DNA from: Collinsella provencensis
Lineage (GTDB): Bacteria; Actinomycetota; Coriobacteriia; Coriobacteriales; Coriobacteriaceae
Length of the DNA: 64,000 bases
Reading direction: 5' to 3'
Assembly (NCBI RefSeq): GCF_900199705.1
Contig: NZ_LT904908.1
Location: 922,530-986,529 of the forward strand
Of the stretch, positions 4,140 through 45,265 are shown in pieces. A program made the position numbers and the translations under genes. Numbering within the stretch: position 1 is the first letter of the stretch; the number at the start of each line of letters is the position of its first letter. Under the pieces are notes generated by a model that ran no database searches, had not been told where the DNA came from, and worked only from the letters and a program-made list of their open reading frames with translations.

Positions 4140-5219
4140 TTAGACGATGATGACGCCCGACCAGAGGCTCTGCCAAATGCCAAAGCCAGATCCAAGAATG
4201 CCGATGATGAGCAGAAGCACGATGCCCTTAACAGGAGTGAAGTTGGCCTTCGCGAACAGGAAGTACAGCATCAACACGAGCGCAAGGGGAACGAGCTTGG
4301 GCATAACGGTGTCGAGCGTGTCAGCCACGGAGAAGGAAACCGGGGTCTCGGTAACCGTCGCGTAGGAGACGGAGCTCATGCCGTTGCCAAGGTCAGTGAT
4401 ACCGGTCTCGGTGGCGCCGTCGGTCAGCGCGTTGCCGTCCATGTCGGTCATGCCCATGGTGCCAGCGTCAGCGGTCTTGGTGTCGATGGCCATATCGGCG
4501 AAGTTCTCGGCCTCCTCGTTGGAGACGACGATGGTCTGAACCTCGATGCCACGGGTGGTGCCGTTGGGGATGGTGGCGTTGATCTGGGTGCCACCCATGT
4601 TAACGACCAGGGAGCCAACGACGAAGCAGCCCATGATGGAAGCAGCGCGGGTGAACGCCTGCATGTTGGAGGTCAGGGCGTCGATAGCACTCGTACCGAC
4701 GTTGTACGCCCAACGCATGAGGCCAAAGCGGCACGCAGCCTGTGCGATGTTGAACACCAGCAGGAAGATGATAGGGGCCGCGATGTTGCCGTCAATTGCC
4801 ATGTTGGAGGTCAGACCAGCGGTGATAGGCACGAGGGTCAGCCAGAACAGGGCGTCACCGATGCCGCCCAGCGGGGAGGCAGCAGAAATGCGGACGGCGC
4901 GGATGGACTGGATATCGACCTTGTTCTGCTCGAGGGAGAGAACGATACCCATAACAAACGTCACCAGGAACGGATGCGTGTTGATGAAGTCCAAGTTGTG
5001 GTACATCGACGTGGCAAGGTCGTTCTTGTTGGTGTGGACCTTCTCGAGGCCCGGAATCATGGCGAACAGCCAGCCGCCGGACTGCATGGTCTCGTAGTTG
5101 AAGGAAGACTGCAGCCAGTAGGAGCGGAGAGCCATACGATCGAGGGTCTTGTTATCAACCTTCGGCGCAGGAGTCAGATCTTCGTAACGCTCCGGTACGA
5201 CAAACTCATTAGATGCCAT
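4140..5219 (-). CDS. PTS mannose/fructose/sorbose-family transporter subunit IID
   Basis: Membrane subunit IID forms the sugar channel together with IIC. The N-terminal part (FNYETMQSGGWLFAMIPGLEKV, then HPFLVTFVMGIVLSLEQ) and SPLGGIGDALFW are hallmarks of this family. At 359 residues it is clearly longer than the roughly 270-300 of typical members. The extra length sits between the conserved domain and the C-terminal membrane anchor (about 215-290), in a Thr/Asp/Gly-rich stretch expected to be extracytoplasmic. The start overlaps the IIC stop by eleven bases, indicating coupled translation. It is the last gene of the PTS operon. Confidence 0.92.
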   Translation of the reverse strand: MASNEFVVPERYEDLTPAPKVDNKTLDRMALRSYWLQSSFNYETMQSGGWLFAMIPGLEKVHTNKNDLATSMYHNLDFINTHPFLVTFVMGIVLSLEQNKVDIQSIRAVRISAASPLGGIGDALFWLTLVPITAGLTSNMAIDGNIAAPIIFLLVFNIAQAACRFGLMRWAYNVGTSAIDALTSNMQAFTRAASIMGCFVVGSLVVNMGGTQINATIPNGTTRGIEVQTIVVSNEEAENFADMAIDTKTADAGTMGMTDMDGNALTDGATETGITDLGNGMSSVSYATVTETPVSFSVADTLDTVMPKLVPLALVLMLYFLFAKANFTPVKGIVLLLIIGILGSGFGIWQSLWSGVIIV

Positions 5220-6006
5220 CGCTCATGTCACCTCCGTCAAAAGCAGCGCCCTTGAGCTCCGTCTGCTGCTGGAAGTCCCAGAAAGCGAGGGCAAAGCCGA
5301 TAACGGCCATGATCAGCAGCTCGGGCTTGGCGAGAGCGGGAATAGCATGGACAACGTTGGTGAGCGCGAAGCCCAGCAGGAAGAACGCCCACATGTCACG
5401 GTTCATCATGACCTTGAGCAGGATGGCGAAGCCGACGAAGCGCATCATGCCACCAGCGGCGGACAGACCGTCGTTGAGCCATGCGGGAATGGCGTTGACA
5501 AGATCCTGACCAACAGCGAGACCGGCAACGAAGAACAGGGTGACGATGACGGCGAAGATCAGGCCGAGGATGACCTCGGAGATAATCGTCAGACGCGTAA
5601 CACCCTTCGTATCAGCGTTGACAGCACAGTTGCGGAAGGACTCCATGATCGGGGCACGGACGGTGAAGAACAGGGTCACGCCGTACTGGCCGAGCAGCGC
5701 AAAGGGGATAGCGGTTGCGACGGCCACGTTCGGATCCATCTTCAGGGTGCAGGCGAACACAGCTGCCATGATGCCACCGATAACGGCGTTAGGCGGCTGA
5801 GCACCTCCGATTGGCATATTACCGATGGTCATCAGCTGGTAAGTACCGCCAACCACCAGGCCGGTGGTGACGTCGCCCAGAATGGCACCGACAACGGCGC
5901 CTGTGACGATCGGCTGATACAAGGACTCGAGGAAGTCGAACTGGTCGATTGCCGCGATAAACGTGACGATAAAGACAAGTGCGACCTGGACAAACGAGAC
6001 ATCCAT
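5209..6006 (-). CDS. PTS mannose/fructose/sorbose-family transporter subunit IIC
   Basis: The 265-residue, highly hydrophobic protein is the IIC channel subunit. It shows the family motif GTYQLMTIGNMPIGGAQPPNA (about 54-74) and some eight membrane segments. It shares the operon with IIB upstream (about 96 bases) and IID downstream (overlapping). With the amino-sugar catabolic genes beside it, the likely substrate is N-acetylgalactosamine, galactosamine or N-acetylglucosamine, inferred from context only. A ribosome site (AGGAGGAG) lies just before the ATG at 6006. Confidence 0.93.
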   Translation of the reverse strand: MDVSFVQVALVFIVTFIAAIDQFDFLESLYQPIVTGAVVGAILGDVTTGLVVGGTYQLMTIGNMPIGGAQPPNAVIGGIMAAVFACTLKMDPNVAVATAIPFALLGQYGVTLFFTVRAPIMESFRNCAVNADTKGVTRLTIISEVILGLIFAVIVTLFFVAGLAVGQDLVNAIPAWLNDGLSAAGGMMRFVGFAILLKVMMNRDMWAFFLLGFALTNVVHAIPALAKPELLIMAVIGFALAFWDFQQQTELKGAAFDGGDMSDGI

Positions 6007-6102
6007 CTGTTACTCCTCCTTTCAGATGTAGTTAGTAACAATGTCTTTTACACATACACACAAACAGAAACGCTGCCTGCATGCCTTGGGGAGCATCAAC
6101 CC

Positions 6103-6585
6103 TTACGAGAAGAGCTTGTTGACGTCCTCAACTGGCGTGCTGGGCACGCGGCGAATTTCAAGTTCCACCCCCAAATTTTGAAGCTCGCGGAAAGCAGCGA
6201 CGTCTGCGTCGTTGACGGCCACCGAGGTGGCAACCTGACGCTTTCCCTCCGCCATGTGCATATTGCCGATATTGACCTTCTTGATAGGCACCCCGCCCTT
6301 GACGAGCGCGAGCACGTCATGCGGGTTTTCGGCCACGATAAAGATCTTCTGCTTCGGAGAGGCCTTGTGAATGATCTCAATGGTCTTCTGAAGCGAGAAG
6401 AAACGGGTGGCAACGCCCGCGGGCGCAGCCATCTTCATGAGGTTCTGACGCATGGTATTGCTAGCGACATCGTCGTTGGCAACGAGAATGAGGTTGGATC
6501 CCAACGTGGAATTCCACTGGGTGGCAACCTGGCCATGAATCAGACGGTTGTCGATACGGGTGAGAAGAATGTTGGGTTCTGCCAT
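6103..6585 (-). CDS. PTS mannose/fructose/sorbose-family subunit IIB
   Basis: The 160-residue cytoplasmic phosphocarrier receives phosphate from IIA and passes it to the incoming sugar. The N-terminus carries the active-site motif DNRLIHGQ with His17 as the phosphorylated residue, and the length is normal for the family. Later conserved stretches include NDDVASN and VPIKKVNIGNMH. The ATG at 6585 follows a GGAAAGGA-type ribosome site. Confidence 0.94.
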   Translation of the reverse strand: MAEPNILLTRIDNRLIHGQVATQWNSTLGSNLILVANDDVASNTMRQNLMKMAAPAGVATRFFSLQKTIEIIHKASPKQKIFIVAENPHDVLALVKGGVPIKKVNIGNMHMAEGKRQVATSVAVNDADVAAFRELQNLGVELEIRRVPSTPVEDVNKLFS

Positions 6586-39784: not shown

Positions 39785-41971
39785 TTACGCCGCATGTCGC
39801 AAACTGATGGCGTCGCGCACGATGCCCTTGCTCATAGCGTAGGCAACCAAAAAGTACCCGCCATAGGAAAGCAGGAAGATCGCACAGGTCATACCCACCG
39901 TTCCGCCAATAGACAGACCGCCGAACAGCTCCACAATCTCAATGACCACCCGAAGCGCCACAAGAGAATGGGCGATGCCGACCACCAGCGGAGCGCAGAA
40001 GAAGATGGCCTGCTGCACCAACACGGAATGCATGATTTCTCGACGCGCAGTACCCAACTCGGACAAAATACGACAGTTCTTCCCAGAGTCCGCAACGCCC
40101 GAGAGCTGCTGAATGGACAGAATAGCTGCGCAGGCAACGACCAACACGAATCCGATGTAGATTGCAAGATAGCTGACAAGGCCATTCATGTTATTGGCAC
40201 CCTCATACGCTTCGAGACGCGTATTTTCGACGCCCCATAGACCATACACCTTGCCCTCGGAAGTGCTCGGATCGTTATATTCGCGCTTTTCCTGCACATA
40301 CTGCTCTGCCTCCCCATAAGGCAGGCCCTTCTTATAGTCGACAAGCAGGTCGCTCACGTACAGCGGCAGATTGCATGCATCGACGACCTCATCGGGAACC
40401 ACGATGGTGCCGGAGTTACCTCCCATGCCGGAAATCATAAACGCGCTTGCCTCTATATCAACCTGGTCCGCCTTGGGATGCAGTTGGAAGGTGCCCATTT
40501 CGAGCAAGGTGCCTTTATGCATGACTTGATCGTATATCCCAGTGATAGTAGAGCCCATATCACATGTGAGCAGGTAACCATCCGAACCCAAATCAACCGT
40601 ATCCATGCCGCGAAATTTCAGGTACTCGTTGTAATTGCTCTCTTTGATAACCATCAAACCCATCGTGTTTGAATCGGCGTTTTCCATACCGACGGGCAGC
40701 GGCAAATCCGCAGCCAGGCATAAGTCGTTCAGTGAGATGAGCGGTTCGGAAGAATCGTCGGGAGTCGAATCGTAGAAGTTGGTCTGAACGTGCTTGCTCG
40801 CAATACGCGACAGGTCAAACGGTTCCCCTGTCGATACGATTGTATTATTCGCACTCTCCTTAAATAGGTCGACCGGCTCGCTCACCGTGGTCTCCCCCTC
40901 GTCAGCCGCGATTCTTCCTATGGAGTCCTCGCCGCTTGAAGGCGCGCGATAGTAGATGAGCGTGCAACAATAATCCGCCGGGGTCCAGCGCTCCAGGTTC
41001 GAATTCATCGCACTGGCGATTGACATGCCGCCCGTCACGCTCGTGATGGCGAGGAACAAAATCATGGCGATAACGGCCATCGAGAAGCTCACCGTGTTGA
41101 CCTTGGCAGAAAGCTGTCGCATCGTCACCATATTCAATCCGCGCCAATACAACGCGCGCACGCTCTGAAGAACCTTAAGTAAGAAGCCCGAAAGGCCAAA
41201 GAAGAACAAGATCGTGCCGATCGTCACCATAAGCGTGGTGATCCAAAAGTCCAACATTTTGGTATCGAGTTCTTCAGGCACGGCATCAACAGGTAAGCCG
41301 TCGCGCAGCAGGCGATAATACGCCACGCCGATGAGCACGACCCCCGCCATAAAAAGAAGGGCCGAAATCCACGGATTGCGAACCTTGATGAGCTCGTTTT
41401 GGCGCTCGGCATGCATAAGGTCGATGATCTTGGCGCGACGCACCACACGCAGGTTAAACAGAAGCGTGACCAGGAAAATCGTTACCAGACAGCCCGCCGT
41501 CCACAAAAACGCATCCACGGAAAAGAAGAAATGGAAGCCCGAGATTTGCGCCTTGAACAGCGATGCCGTAAAGAACGTCATAAGCCAGGAAAGCGCGACG
41601 CCAAACGCGATGCCAAGCACGAGCGCGCAGCCCGACACGATGGCGGTTTCGAGCGCCATGATACGCGAAACTTGTCCACGGCTCATGCCAAGCACCTGGT
41701 ACAAGCCGAATTCCTTTTTGCGGCGCTTCATGATGAAGTTATTTGCGTACACCATCAAGAAGCCCATCACTAGCGCCAGGAACACCGTAAGGCCGCGGAT
41801 GATGCCCCCGAGAAGTTCGGAGAGCCCTTGCTCCATCGTCGCAAAATCAATTTGGATCGAAACCGTGTTAAAGGCGTAGAACACGATGACGGCGAGAGTG
41901 AGCGTAAGCAGGTAAACCAGGTAATCGTGGCCTGCGCGGCGCACGTTGCCCCATGCGAGTTTACAAAGCAT
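39785..41971 (-). CDS. ABC transporter permease, FtsX-like (BceB type)
   Basis: The 728-residue permease has the FtsX-type layout: four N-terminal helices (LCKLAWGNVRRAGHDYLVYLLTLTLAVIVFYAFN; then VMGFLMVYANNFIMKRRKKEFGLYQVLGMSRGQ), further helices, a large extracytoplasmic domain (about 325-600) and C-terminal helices with GKNCRILSELGTARREI. This matches the BceB/YtrF group, which sense or remove peptide antibiotics. Its start overlaps the ATPase stop by eleven bases. No BceRS-type sensor kinase is next to it. Confidence 0.88.
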   Translation of the reverse strand: MLCKLAWGNVRRAGHDYLVYLLTLTLAVIVFYAFNTVSIQIDFATMEQGLSELLGGIIRGLTVFLALVMGFLMVYANNFIMKRRKKEFGLYQVLGMSRGQVSRIMALETAIVSGCALVLGIAFGVALSWLMTFFTASLFKAQISGFHFFFSVDAFLWTAGCLVTIFLVTLLFNLRVVRRAKIIDLMHAERQNELIKVRNPWISALLFMAGVVLIGVAYYRLLRDGLPVDAVPEELDTKMLDFWITTLMVTIGTILFFFGLSGFLLKVLQSVRALYWRGLNMVTMRQLSAKVNTVSFSMAVIAMILFLAITSVTGGMSIASAMNSNLERWTPADYCCTLIYYRAPSSGEDSIGRIAADEGETTVSEPVDLFKESANNTIVSTGEPFDLSRIASKHVQTNFYDSTPDDSSEPLISLNDLCLAADLPLPVGMENADSNTMGLMVIKESNYNEYLKFRGMDTVDLGSDGYLLTCDMGSTITGIYDQVMHKGTLLEMGTFQLHPKADQVDIEASAFMISGMGGNSGTIVVPDEVVDACNLPLYVSDLLVDYKKGLPYGEAEQYVQEKREYNDPSTSEGKVYGLWGVENTRLEAYEGANNMNGLVSYLAIYIGFVLVVACAAILSIQQLSGVADSGKNCRILSELGTARREIMHSVLVQQAIFFCAPLVVGIAHSLVALRVVIEIVELFGGLSIGGTVGMTCAIFLLSYGGYFLVAYAMSKGIVRDAISLRHAA

Positions 41972-42758
41972 CGGAACCCTCACCGCCCATCATCGCAACA
42001 ACTTCCATAATGCGGTCAAAGAACTCGCGGCGCGAGGTCGACCCGCGCCTGAGCTCGGTGAACAGGCGCCCGTCGCGGATGAACAACACGCGGTTGGAAT
42101 AACTCGCCGCAAAGCTGTCGTGAGTGACCATGAGGACCGTAGCCTGGTAGCGCTGGTTCATGGTCTCAAAGCTCTCAAGAAGGAGTCGCGCGTTCTTGGA
42201 GTCGAGTGCGCCCGTGGGCTCATCGGCCATGATGATTGCAGGGTCGGTAACGAGGGCTCGCGCCGCCGCAACGCGCTGCTGCTGACCACCGGAAAGCTGA
42301 TAGGGATATTTGCCCAGCACTCCCGTGATGTTGAGGCGCTGCGCCACCTGCTCCACGCGGTCGAGCGTTTGCGCCGCAGGAACGCGAGCAATGGTGAGCG
42401 GCAGCGCGATGTTCTCACGAGCGGTGAGCGTGTCGAGCAGGTTGGAGTCCTGGAAGATAAAGCCGAGCTGTTCGCGGCGGAATCGGGTGAGCCTGTCGGA
42501 CTTCATGCGCGTGACATCCGCCCCGTTGATGAGCACGCTGCCACTCGTAACCGAGTCGATGGTGCTCACGCAGTTGAGCAGCGTGGACTTGCCGGAGCCT
42601 GATGCGCCCATGATGCCCACAAACTCGCCCTTTTCCACCGTGAACGACACGTCGGTGAGTGCGCGGGTCACATTGCTGCGCCCGCCGTACACCTTCTCGA
42701 CATGCTGTGCGGCAAGCACCGGCGCGGTGCTGCCCAAACCCGAAATACCCTGCGTCAT
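41961..42758 (-). CDS. ABC transporter ATP-binding protein (BceA/MacB type)
   Basis: The 265-residue ATPase has Walker A GASGSGKST, Q-loop FIFQDSNLLDTLTARENIALPL, signature LSGGQQQRVAAARAL, Walker B IIMADEPTGALD and the switch His in VTHD. The C-terminal DGRLFTELRRGSTSRREFFDRIMEV is typical of ATPases that pair with BceB-like permeases. The start ATG at 42758 has GAGGG six bases upstream; the upstream open frame is not used. It drives the neighbouring permease. Confidence 0.92.
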   Translation of the reverse strand: MTQGISGLGSTAPVLAAQHVEKVYGGRSNVTRALTDVSFTVEKGEFVGIMGASGSGKSTLLNCVSTIDSVTSGSVLINGADVTRMKSDRLTRFRREQLGFIFQDSNLLDTLTARENIALPLTIARVPAAQTLDRVEQVAQRLNITGVLGKYPYQLSGGQQQRVAAARALVTDPAIIMADEPTGALDSKNARLLLESFETMNQRYQATVLMVTHDSFAASYSNRVLFIRDGRLFTELRRGSTSRREFFDRIMEVVAMMGGEGSDAL

Positions 42759-42935
42759 GTTTTCCCTCATTTCACGTTGTTGATAGCAAGATACCCTGCT
42801 TCGACCTGCTTTGTTCGTTCGTCTTCGCCCGTTGTTGCTCGGCATCGTTCGTATTGCGCATTGCTCGCAATTCGACGAGCGGTTCGCACTCGCCAAGTTC
42901 AGCGCATGCGCCTCCATGCGATAGAGACTGGGTCG

Positions 42936-43287: not shown

Positions 43288-44109
43288 ATGGTCAGCATCG
43301 TTTTTTCCGATATGGATGGCACCTTTCTCACCCCTGAGAAGACCATCACTGCCGACAATCTCGCCATACTCGATGAACTGTACCGTCGTGGTATAGAGTT
43401 CGTGCCCTGCACGGGACGAAACGAAGACGCCCTTCCCCCGGAGCTTGTAGCCCATCCCGCCGTCAAGCATGCAATTTGCTGCAACGGCGCACTCATCGTC
43501 GATGTCAAAACTCACGCCGTGCTTCATGTCTTGGAAATCGACAAACAGCTCGTGCTCGACATTTTTCATCAGATTTGCGACATGCCCGTCGTCTTTGACA
43601 TCTTCGCCGACGGACACGTCTATATCGAACGGAGCCGCTTCCGCCGCATCGACGAAGTCAACCTCAGCGCTCCCACACGGGATTTCATCAAGTCAAGCAG
43701 AATCCCTCATGACCTTTCCGCCGAAGAGTTGCTCGACCAAGTGCACAGCATCACACGCCTTAACTTCTTTTATCATGACGCGCAGGAAGCCGAGGCGGTT
43801 TGGTCGATCATCGACGCTGTGCCCAGCCTGAGAAGGACGACCTCGCTTCCCTGCAACGTCGAGGTGACGGACGTGGGCGCTCACAAGGGCTCGGCTGTCA
43901 AGTGGCTTTGCAACGAGCTGGGCATCCCACTTTGCAACGCTGTCGCATTTGGGGACAACGACAACGACATCACTATGCTTTCGACCGCAGGAGATGGCGT
44001 GGCAATGGAAAACGCCCTACCCTCGTGCAAGGCGGCCGCCGACCATGTGACAACAAGCTGCTCCGAGTCTGGTGTCGCAAGCTACCTCACATCGCTTCTC
44101 GCTGGCTAA
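43288..44109 (+). CDS. HAD-superfamily hydrolase, Cof-type
   Basis: The 273-residue phosphatase has motif I FSDMDGTFL with the nucleophilic Asp, motif II CTGRN, the cap domain in the middle, the conserved Lys in AHKGSAVKWL and motif IV GDNDNDITML. Cof-type enzymes dephosphorylate sugar phosphates, FMN or pyridoxal phosphate; the substrate here cannot be told. The ATG at 43288 follows AAGGAGA at a longish spacing. It ends 16 bases before the NUDIX-Vsr gene on the same strand. Confidence 0.92.
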   Translation: MVSIVFSDMDGTFLTPEKTITADNLAILDELYRRGIEFVPCTGRNEDALPPELVAHPAVKHAICCNGALIVDVKTHAVLHVLEIDKQLVLDIFHQICDMPVVFDIFADGHVYIERSRFRRIDEVNLSAPTRDFIKSSRIPHDLSAEELLDQVHSITRLNFFYHDAQEAEAVWSIIDAVPSLRRTTSLPCNVEVTDVGAHKGSAVKWLCNELGIPLCNAVAFGDNDNDITMLSTAGDGVAMENALPSCKAAADHVTTSCSESGVASYLTSLLAG

Positions 44110-44125: not shown

Positions 44126-45001
44126 TTGAAGACAGTGCGTGTAGCTGCGGGAATTATCCAACGTGACGGAAGCGACGGGCAGGAAGAACTGCTCGCCGCG
44201 CAACGCGGCTATGGAGACATGGACGGCATGTGGGAATTCCCCGGTGGGAAAATCGAATCGGGCGAGACTGCAGCCGAGGCATGTGCGCGTGAACTGCGCG
44301 AAGAGCTCCAAGTGAGCATCACCAACCTGCAGGATTTTTACACGCTGGAATACGACTACCCCGAGTTTCATCTCTCCATGAACTGCTTCTTTTGCAACCT
44401 TGACGAGAACTCGGACGAACCTCAGCGCAACGACAAGCAACGTGAACTGCGTTGGGTCCATCGCTCCTCTCTCGCCACGCTCGAATGGATGCCCGCTGAT
44501 GTCGAGCTCGTCAACGTACTTGAGGGACTCGATGAAACCGAGGGTGAAGATGCCCCGAGCATTGATGAGGCAAAGACGAAACTGGTGCGGCGACGCGCGG
44601 CAGTACGCAAATCCATGCAGGGAAACAAACGCAAGAACACCAAGCCCGAGTTGCTCGTACGCAAACGCCTGCGCGAGGCGGGGTATACGGGGTATCGCCT
44701 TGACTGGGCAAAGGCGCCGGGTCGTCCGGATATCGCCTTCCCCGGACGCAAGATCGCCATTTTCGTCAACGGCTGCTACTGGCATCGATGCCCCCATTGC
44801 AATCCCAGCATGCCCAAGAAAAACGTATCGTTTTGGGAAGCTAAATTTAGGCGCAACGTGGAACGCGATAAGCGTGCGCTCGGGGAACTCGAGCAGCTCG
44901 GCTGGACTGCGATTACCATTTGGGAATGCGAACTCAAACGCGACAACATCGACGCCACCATGGATGCCGTCATCGACCGCATTCGCTCGGCGTGGGACTA
45001 G
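44126..45001 (+). CDS. NUDIX hydrolase fused to a Vsr-type mismatch endonuclease
   Basis: A single 291-residue frame joins two repair-type enzymes. Residues 1-130 are a MutT-like NUDIX domain with a nearly complete box: G41, E47, R55-E56, E59-E60 within GGKIESGETAAEACARELRE. Such domains hydrolyse oxidised nucleotides like 8-oxo-dGTP. Residues about 155-291 are a very-short-patch repair endonuclease: NTKPELLVRKRL, GRPDIAF with the catalytic Asp202, NGCYWHRCPHC with His220 and zinc ligands, FRRNVERDKR and IWECEL. Vsr nicks at T:G mismatches left by 5-methylcytosine deamination. No methylase gene is nearby. The start is probably TTG at 44126 behind GAGGTG. Confidence 0.92.
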   Translation: MKTVRVAAGIIQRDGSDGQEELLAAQRGYGDMDGMWEFPGGKIESGETAAEACARELREELQVSITNLQDFYTLEYDYPEFHLSMNCFFCNLDENSDEPQRNDKQRELRWVHRSSLATLEWMPADVELVNVLEGLDETEGEDAPSIDEAKTKLVRRRAAVRKSMQGNKRKNTKPELLVRKRLREAGYTGYRLDWAKAPGRPDIAFPGRKIAIFVNGCYWHRCPHCNPSMPKKNVSFWEAKFRRNVERDKRALGELEQLGWTAITIWECELKRDNIDATMDAVIDRIRSAWD

Positions 45002-45010
45002 GAGGTCATC

Positions 45011-45265
45011 ATGCAACCTAACCATGCATTTTCCGAAGAGTTCAACGACCTGCAGCGCCTGATCGATGGACTATTTGCAGACCGTAAAATCGTCGATCGC
45101 CTCGATTTGATTGTCCAGGCAGAAGTGCTCGACCTCTCGCCCGATATGATTGAAATCGTAAATCTTGTGCCTTCGGGGGAATATGACCGCGTGCGCTTAT
45201 GCGATCAAATCAACTCCGCGCTTGCGGCGCACGGGTGGGGGGCCACGTACGGCATCGTGGAATAG
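45011..45265 (+). CDS. Small conserved-looking hypothetical protein
   Basis: The 84-residue protein starts nine bases after the NUDIX-Vsr stop with a perfect GGAGGT ribosome site. It is acidic, has no membrane segment or signal peptide, and shows two helical stretches and a mixed C-terminus (EYDRVRLCDQINSALAAHGWGATYG). Its tight coupling suggests a partner of the NUDIX-Vsr protein. I do not recognise the family. Confidence 0.7.
   Translation: MQPNHAFSEEFNDLQRLIDGLFADRKIVDRLDLIVQAEVLDLSPDMIEIVNLVPSGEYDRVRLCDQINSALAAHGWGATYGIVE

Follow-up and report, generated by a model that had tools for sequence, protein, structure and literature searches.

The fusion gene at 44126..45001 (+) of the window—the whole 64,000-nucleotide stretch of the Collinsella provencensis genome analyzed here—raises the question of why a MutT-like NUDIX domain and a Vsr endonuclease should be joined and kept in the Coriobacteriaceae, a family of the Coriobacteriia, common gut bacteria without a recognized mismatch-repair system (PMC5290159). 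The reading that we favor, at a probability of roughly 50%, is a vertically inherited two-domain antimutator with a Vsr half that would act independently of methylation. DNA protection is a plausible joint role for the two domains.

The gene encodes a predicted protein of 291 amino acids. Its TTG start codon lies 17 nt 3' of the stop codon of the upstream HAD-hydrolase gene and is preceded by a ribosome-binding-like AGAGGTG. Residues 1-134 (44126..44527, +) make up the MutT-like NUDIX domain and residues 158-286 (44597..44983, +) the Vsr domain, with Pfam matches to residues 5-124 (3.1e-18) and 161-221 (1.4e-17), respectively; a linker of about residues 135-157 (44528..44596, +) separates them. 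In an AlphaFold2 model (35 sequences; mean pLDDT 85.7), the two domains were mostly predicted with confidence, the linker was poorly defined with low pLDDT, and packing between the domains was not confident (pTM 0.57). Across 54 fusions, linker length varied from 8 to 116 residues, and mean pairwise identity was 43% in the linker, 73% in the NUDIX domain, and 83% in the Vsr domain. As modeled, the linker fits a flexible tether. Where the linker is long, as in L021 and other fusions of the C. aerofaciens type, it contains a basic patch and then, immediately before the Vsr domain, a GLLDGIDTS-like motif, a possible binding element.

The preliminary description had read both domains in one frame, and this held up: the same single-frame fusion recurred in 54 genomes, several of them on few or single contigs, and an independently annotated public C. 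aerofaciens record has a single 990-nt CDS spanning both domains (WP_320677908.1), annotated only as "DNA mismatch endonuclease Vsr." The same description proposed a survey of relatives; among 37 Collinsella-type genomes, 36 encoded the two domains in a single open frame. The description had also considered that close relatives might carry two separate genes and that the fusion might be an artifact; unfused Vsr occurred in one other genus of Coriobacteriaceae and in other families. A missed stop or assembly error as the origin of the frame was excluded by the 54 genomes and the C. aerofaciens CDS, and we regard it as exceedingly improbable. Literature searches returned no description of a NUDIX-Vsr fusion, and we class it as a new pairing of domains from two known families.

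Directly upstream of the fusion is a Cof-type HAD hydrolase gene (43288..44109, +), with which it is perhaps cotranscribed; the fetched loci of relatives had no HAD match beside the fusion, and the arrangement was found in this genome only. Directly 3' of the fusion, an 84-amino-acid open reading frame (ORF; 45011..45265, +) had no family match and adjoins the fusion in the closest relatives as well, with 72 to 79% identity. Farther upstream, an ABC transporter ATPase (41961..42917, −) and its permease (39785-41983) mark the family-wide neighborhood, the pair being common to 16 of 17 family loci. The stand-alone Vsr locus of family f5 was likewise syntenic, in 9 of 9 genomes.

Fusions were recovered from five Coriobacteriaceae genera, four of which were added by the class-wide sample; the closest named relatives of this genome are C. 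intestinalis DSM 13280 and C. stercoris. Phylogenetic analysis placed the fused Vsr domains in a single clade (support 100/99) and the fused NUDIX domains in one group with weak support (26/83), while the unfused Vsr of genus g24, in the same family, grouped elsewhere. Since the fusion forms one clade and occupies one conserved locus, it most simply arose once in Coriobacteriaceae and was inherited vertically. Only one same-genus genome (G027) had no Vsr, and its MutT-like domain, on a long branch, clustered with those of the fusions. This domain lies in a 595-residue frame (L109 5818-7602, −) together with an upstream sequence that resembles a Gfo/Idh-like oxidoreductase by eye, possibly another MutT fusion. 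A candidate decayed fusion in G117 (a 2-188 match with a stop) proved to be a NUDIX gene standing alone, with no remnant of Vsr, and was dropped. Outside Coriobacteriaceae, we found no fusion among 396 genomes sampled from the phylum, nor among 80 named loci obtained by scanning about 85,000 species genomes with peptide patterns, a method that distant fusions could escape. None was found in phages, and the only plasmid record with a fusion was a 0.9-Mb C. aerofaciens replicon, so that a phage- or plasmid-borne fusion was dropped from consideration. In the genomes sampled, the fusion is specific to this one family.

Both halves retain the residues expected of active enzymes. The NUDIX box (GX5EX7REUXEEXGU, PF00293) extends from G41 to E60, and its catalytic glutamates E56, E59, and E60 were invariant in the 54 fusions. 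A PDB search with the N-terminal half returned MutT-type proteins at about 1e-14, and Foldseek, whose top list for the fusion model covers the NUDIX half only, placed it beside MutT-type enzymes and M. smegmatis MutT2, with the 5mdCTP complex of the latter among the best matches. Scores fell below the cutoffs of both the NCBIfam MutT equivalog TIGR00586 (85 bits; cutoff, 97.9) and the NudG model PRK10546 (62.5 bits; cutoff, 156). In addition, D125 of the fusion aligns with Asn119 of E. coli MutT, which we take to be the base-recognition residue; Asp also occupies this position in NudG/Orf135, in a putative CTP pyrophosphohydrolase of B. fragilis, and in one enzyme annotated MutT. Because the MutT cutoff is missed and Asp stands at the Asn119 position, the substrate may not be 8-oxo-dGTP; 8-oxo-dGTP, 5-methyl-dCTP, or another damaged deoxynucleoside triphosphate (dNTP) may be hydrolyzed. 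The proposal in the preliminary description that one protein could cover both oxidized and deaminated lesions is a possible one. Only two NUDIX proteins were found in this genome, and the other is NudF-like as read from its sequence, which leaves the fusion as the sole MutT-like protein of the genome.

The Vsr half exceeded the cutoff of NCBIfam TIGR00632 (110.1 versus 97.85 bits), and its match in the PDB search was E. coli Vsr (1cw0, 9.5e-20). In alignment to that enzyme, D202, H220, and D248 correspond to D51, H69, and D97; these three, along with E175 and Cys217/222/225/268, were invariant in the fused set. Their roles (catalytic Asp, critical His, and zinc-binding Cys217/225/268) are presumably those seen in the E. 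coli structure. The intact active sites reported earlier for both domains, with E59-E60, D202, and H220 named, were thus correctly identified. His64 of E. coli Vsr is replaced by Asn (N215) in all 57 fused rows. We dropped this replacement as a mark of altered function because Asn is also present in 31 of 43 stand-alone Vsr proteins of the class, methylase-linked ones included; it probably does not signify lost function, and His64 is not taken as a defining feature of the Vsr family. The Vsr half is classed as a PD-(D/E)XK endonuclease. It belongs to a Vsr lineage of the Coriobacteriia that, outside the order Coriobacteriales, lies mostly in Sau3AI-like restriction-modification cassettes. T:G-specific nicking is what we infer for it. 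Among tetranucleotides, CTAG was less frequent and CCAG more frequent in genomes with Vsr, a shift whose direction matches that known from E. coli; however, larger differences were seen for many unrelated words, and base composition also differed.

Vsr normally accompanies a cytosine methylase, and the preliminary description had noted the absence of such a gene. This was correct for the window; the genome-wide search that it proposed located one C5-methylase elsewhere in the genome (C3:768719-769972), about 153-154 kb upstream of the window. The gene directly before it encodes a 487-amino-acid Sau3AI-like nuclease (Pfam MutH family; NCBIfam Sau3AI, 2.2e-51, under the cutoff; PDB Sau3AI 4pxg, 3.7e-9). 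Given this adjacency, the two very likely constitute a restriction-modification pair. Methylases of the same family (48 to 62% identity) adjoin stand-alone Vsr genes in other Coriobacteriia, where Sau3AI-like nucleases also adjoin in most cases. In several relatives (at L053 1998-4709, and also in L051, L054, and L111), the Sau3AI-like nuclease and C5-methylase form one ORF of about 900 residues, and near the Sau3AI-like pair of L031 an ORF (5008-6105, −) combines GIY-YIG nuclease and DNA-alkylation-repair domains.

We compared the distributions of methylases and Vsr across 298 genomes sampled from the class. Outside the order Coriobacteriales, all 25 Vsr-bearing genomes had a C5-methylase, versus 114 of 176 inside the order (62 of 176 without one; Fisher P = 9e-5, with genomes counted as if unrelated). 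Within Coriobacteriaceae, Vsr was present in 53 of 54 genomes and a C5-methylase, of several types, in 35 of 54; 19 of the 53 Vsr-bearing genomes had no C5-methylase, including one assembled as a single contig (G185). Sixteen of these 19 carry the fusion and three are unfused g24 genomes, and a further genome (G014) besides the 16 of the class sample also keeps the fusion with no detectable C5-methylase. As the fusion is kept in such genomes, it is unlikely to exist solely on account of deaminated 5-methylcytosine. The Coriobacteriales Vsr looks like a stand-alone chromosomal gene freed from its cassette and often kept without a C5-methylase. Methylase turnover appears to be quick among close Collinsella relatives, and methylase-free genomes may be recent.

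Rates of substitution bear on this point. The median dN/dS of the Vsr domain was 0.144 when both genomes of a pair were methylase-free and 0.146 when neither was on the methylase-free list; these pairs are not independent, and many are near saturation at silent sites. Two methylase-free sister pairs gave dN/dS values near 0.04-0.05: G005/G015 (dN 0.017, dS 0.423) and G115/G301 (dN 0.024, dS 0.443). Vsr is under strong purifying selection in methylase-free genomes. The simplest inference from these pairs is a Vsr function independent of a resident methylase; the main alternative reading is that the methylases may have been lost recently.

No MutS was found in 108 class genomes and no MutL in 60, with positive controls detected in both searches. 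NucS gave only short partial matches in the 108 genomes, and the fusion itself had no NucS_C match; a weak NucS-like match in this genome was dropped as a UPF0102 protein. Vsr restores C whichever strand is new, and a strand-blind T:G nickase would fix some replication errors wrongly. Two observations weigh against a mismatch-repair reading. Families outside the order are also without MutS and NucS, yet keep Vsr with methylases, so that loss of mismatch repair alone does not explain the uncoupling. Several lineages of the order have neither Vsr nor known mismatch repair, which makes the function dispensable. In the stretches read, Vsr-less genomes of the order (L221-L239), of several genera, had a median G+C of 0.505 versus 0.621 for L035-L107, values uncorrected for kinship or genome reduction. 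Our results are consistent with the statement of Castaneda-Garcia et al. that all analyzed Coriobacteriia were without NucS and MutSL (PMC5290159).

The antimutator reading would operate as follows. The NUDIX half would hydrolyze a mutagenic (d)NTP, which may be 8-oxo-dGTP or else a modified dCTP. The Vsr half would nick T:G mismatches on the 5' side of the T, across a wide range of sequence contexts. Such mismatches would come from deamination of 5-methylcytosine where a methylase is resident and otherwise from replication errors, in host cells predicted to have neither MutSL nor NucS. Host polymerase and ligase would then carry out short-patch synthesis after the nick. Covalent linkage would mainly set stoichiometry and coexpression, and no fixed interface between the domains is predicted. 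The strongest form, which is contained in the antimutator reading and which we consider improbable, would make the Coriobacteriales Vsr lineage the mismatch-correction nuclease of the group, methylase independent, acting on T:G (possibly wider) in broad contexts, and in Coriobacteriaceae joined to dNTP sanitation within a single polypeptide.

Other readings have to be weighed against the antimutator. It is possible, if doubtful, that the Vsr half serves only very-short-patch repair of deaminated 5-methylcytosine, with a loose specificity, and is kept as insurance against frequent gain and loss of C5-methylase restriction-modification systems. The presence of C5-methylases, of several types, in 35 of the 54 family genomes would agree with this, as would the Sau3AI-like pair of this genome, whose methylase belongs to the family found beside Vsr in outgroups. 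Caulobacter offers a precedent in VsrA, which works with an unlinked solitary methylase (PMC12907096). However, an unpaired Vsr-like protein lowers Caulobacter fitness when the methylase is removed, which would favor loss and makes methylase-free retention here more notable (PMC12907096), and the strong purifying selection on Vsr persists in methylase-free sister genomes. We are similarly hesitant about the absence of any coupling, in which two housekeeping genes merged by chance and the halves work separately in a harmless fusion, a reading compatible with the others. The variable, low-complexity linker of 8 to 116 residues and the lack of confident interdomain packing (pTM 0.57) would suit it, but five genera retain the fusion, the few exceptions being G027, which has no Vsr, and g24, whose Vsr is unfused and groups elsewhere.

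The residue at the Asn119 position bears on a further reading, also compatible with the others and concerned with 5-methylcytosine. Here the NUDIX half would destroy 5-methyl-dCTP (or dCTP or 5-hydroxy-dCTP) in the manner of NudG or MutT2, barring random insertion of methyl-C, while the Vsr half would repair the product of its deamination; we judge this combined role unlikely. Asp at this position is shared with NudG and the B. fragilis protein, the MutT2-5mdCTP complex is among the best Foldseek matches, and NudG/Orf135 acts on 5-methyl-dCTP (PMC10742078). Yet the same Asp occurs in the enzyme annotated MutT, the NudG model scores lower than the MutT model (62.5 versus 85 bits, both under their cutoffs), and genomes with no C5-methylase at all retain the fusion.

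In a class without any known mismatch-repair system, the fusion is a concrete candidate for a missing fidelity function. A conserved protein predicted to combine pool cleaning with T:G nicking, and kept without cytosine methylation, gives this open repair question a named gene, and it points to a Vsr that became a core gene after leaving restriction-modification behind. The NUDIX half is hidden when automatic annotation names the protein only "Vsr." If true, the strongest form of the antimutator reading would represent a further independent solution to mismatch repair.

In comparison with E. coli Vsr (V.EcoKDcm; 1cw0, 1vsr, and 1odg), the Vsr half shares the PD motif, the equivalents of D51, H69, and D97, the Cys ligands of the zinc site, and the aromatic positions Trp68/Trp86 and Phe67/Tyr; for these aromatic and Cys positions too, we assume the roles given by the E. 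coli structure. It differs in having Asn for His64, a NUDIX partner domain, no adjacent dcm, and a genome without the partners MutS and MutL. The NUDIX half resembles E. coli MutT, NudG/Orf135, and M. smegmatis MutT2 in its NUDIX box and fold (28 to 34% identity; Foldseek) but differs from E. coli MutT in having Asp for Asn119, and from both MutT and NudG in falling below the equivalog cutoffs and in carrying a C-terminal Vsr domain. The Sau3AI-like restriction-modification cassettes of other Coriobacteriia contain the same Vsr lineage, and their methylase family persists in this genome, whereas in those cassettes Vsr is a separate gene beside the methylase and nuclease. V.NgoAXIII of Neisseria gonorrhoeae, which cuts T:G in all nucleotide contexts (PMC6116569), is a precedent for context-free action, a likeness drawn from its described activity; unlike the fusion, it has a linked methylase gene (PMC12907096). 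A further parallel is Caulobacter VsrA/ScmA, in that a Vsr-like gene is unlinked from its methylase, as here, but that protein is of the DUF559 type with no NUDIX domain reported, and its host has MutS and MutL (PMC12907096).
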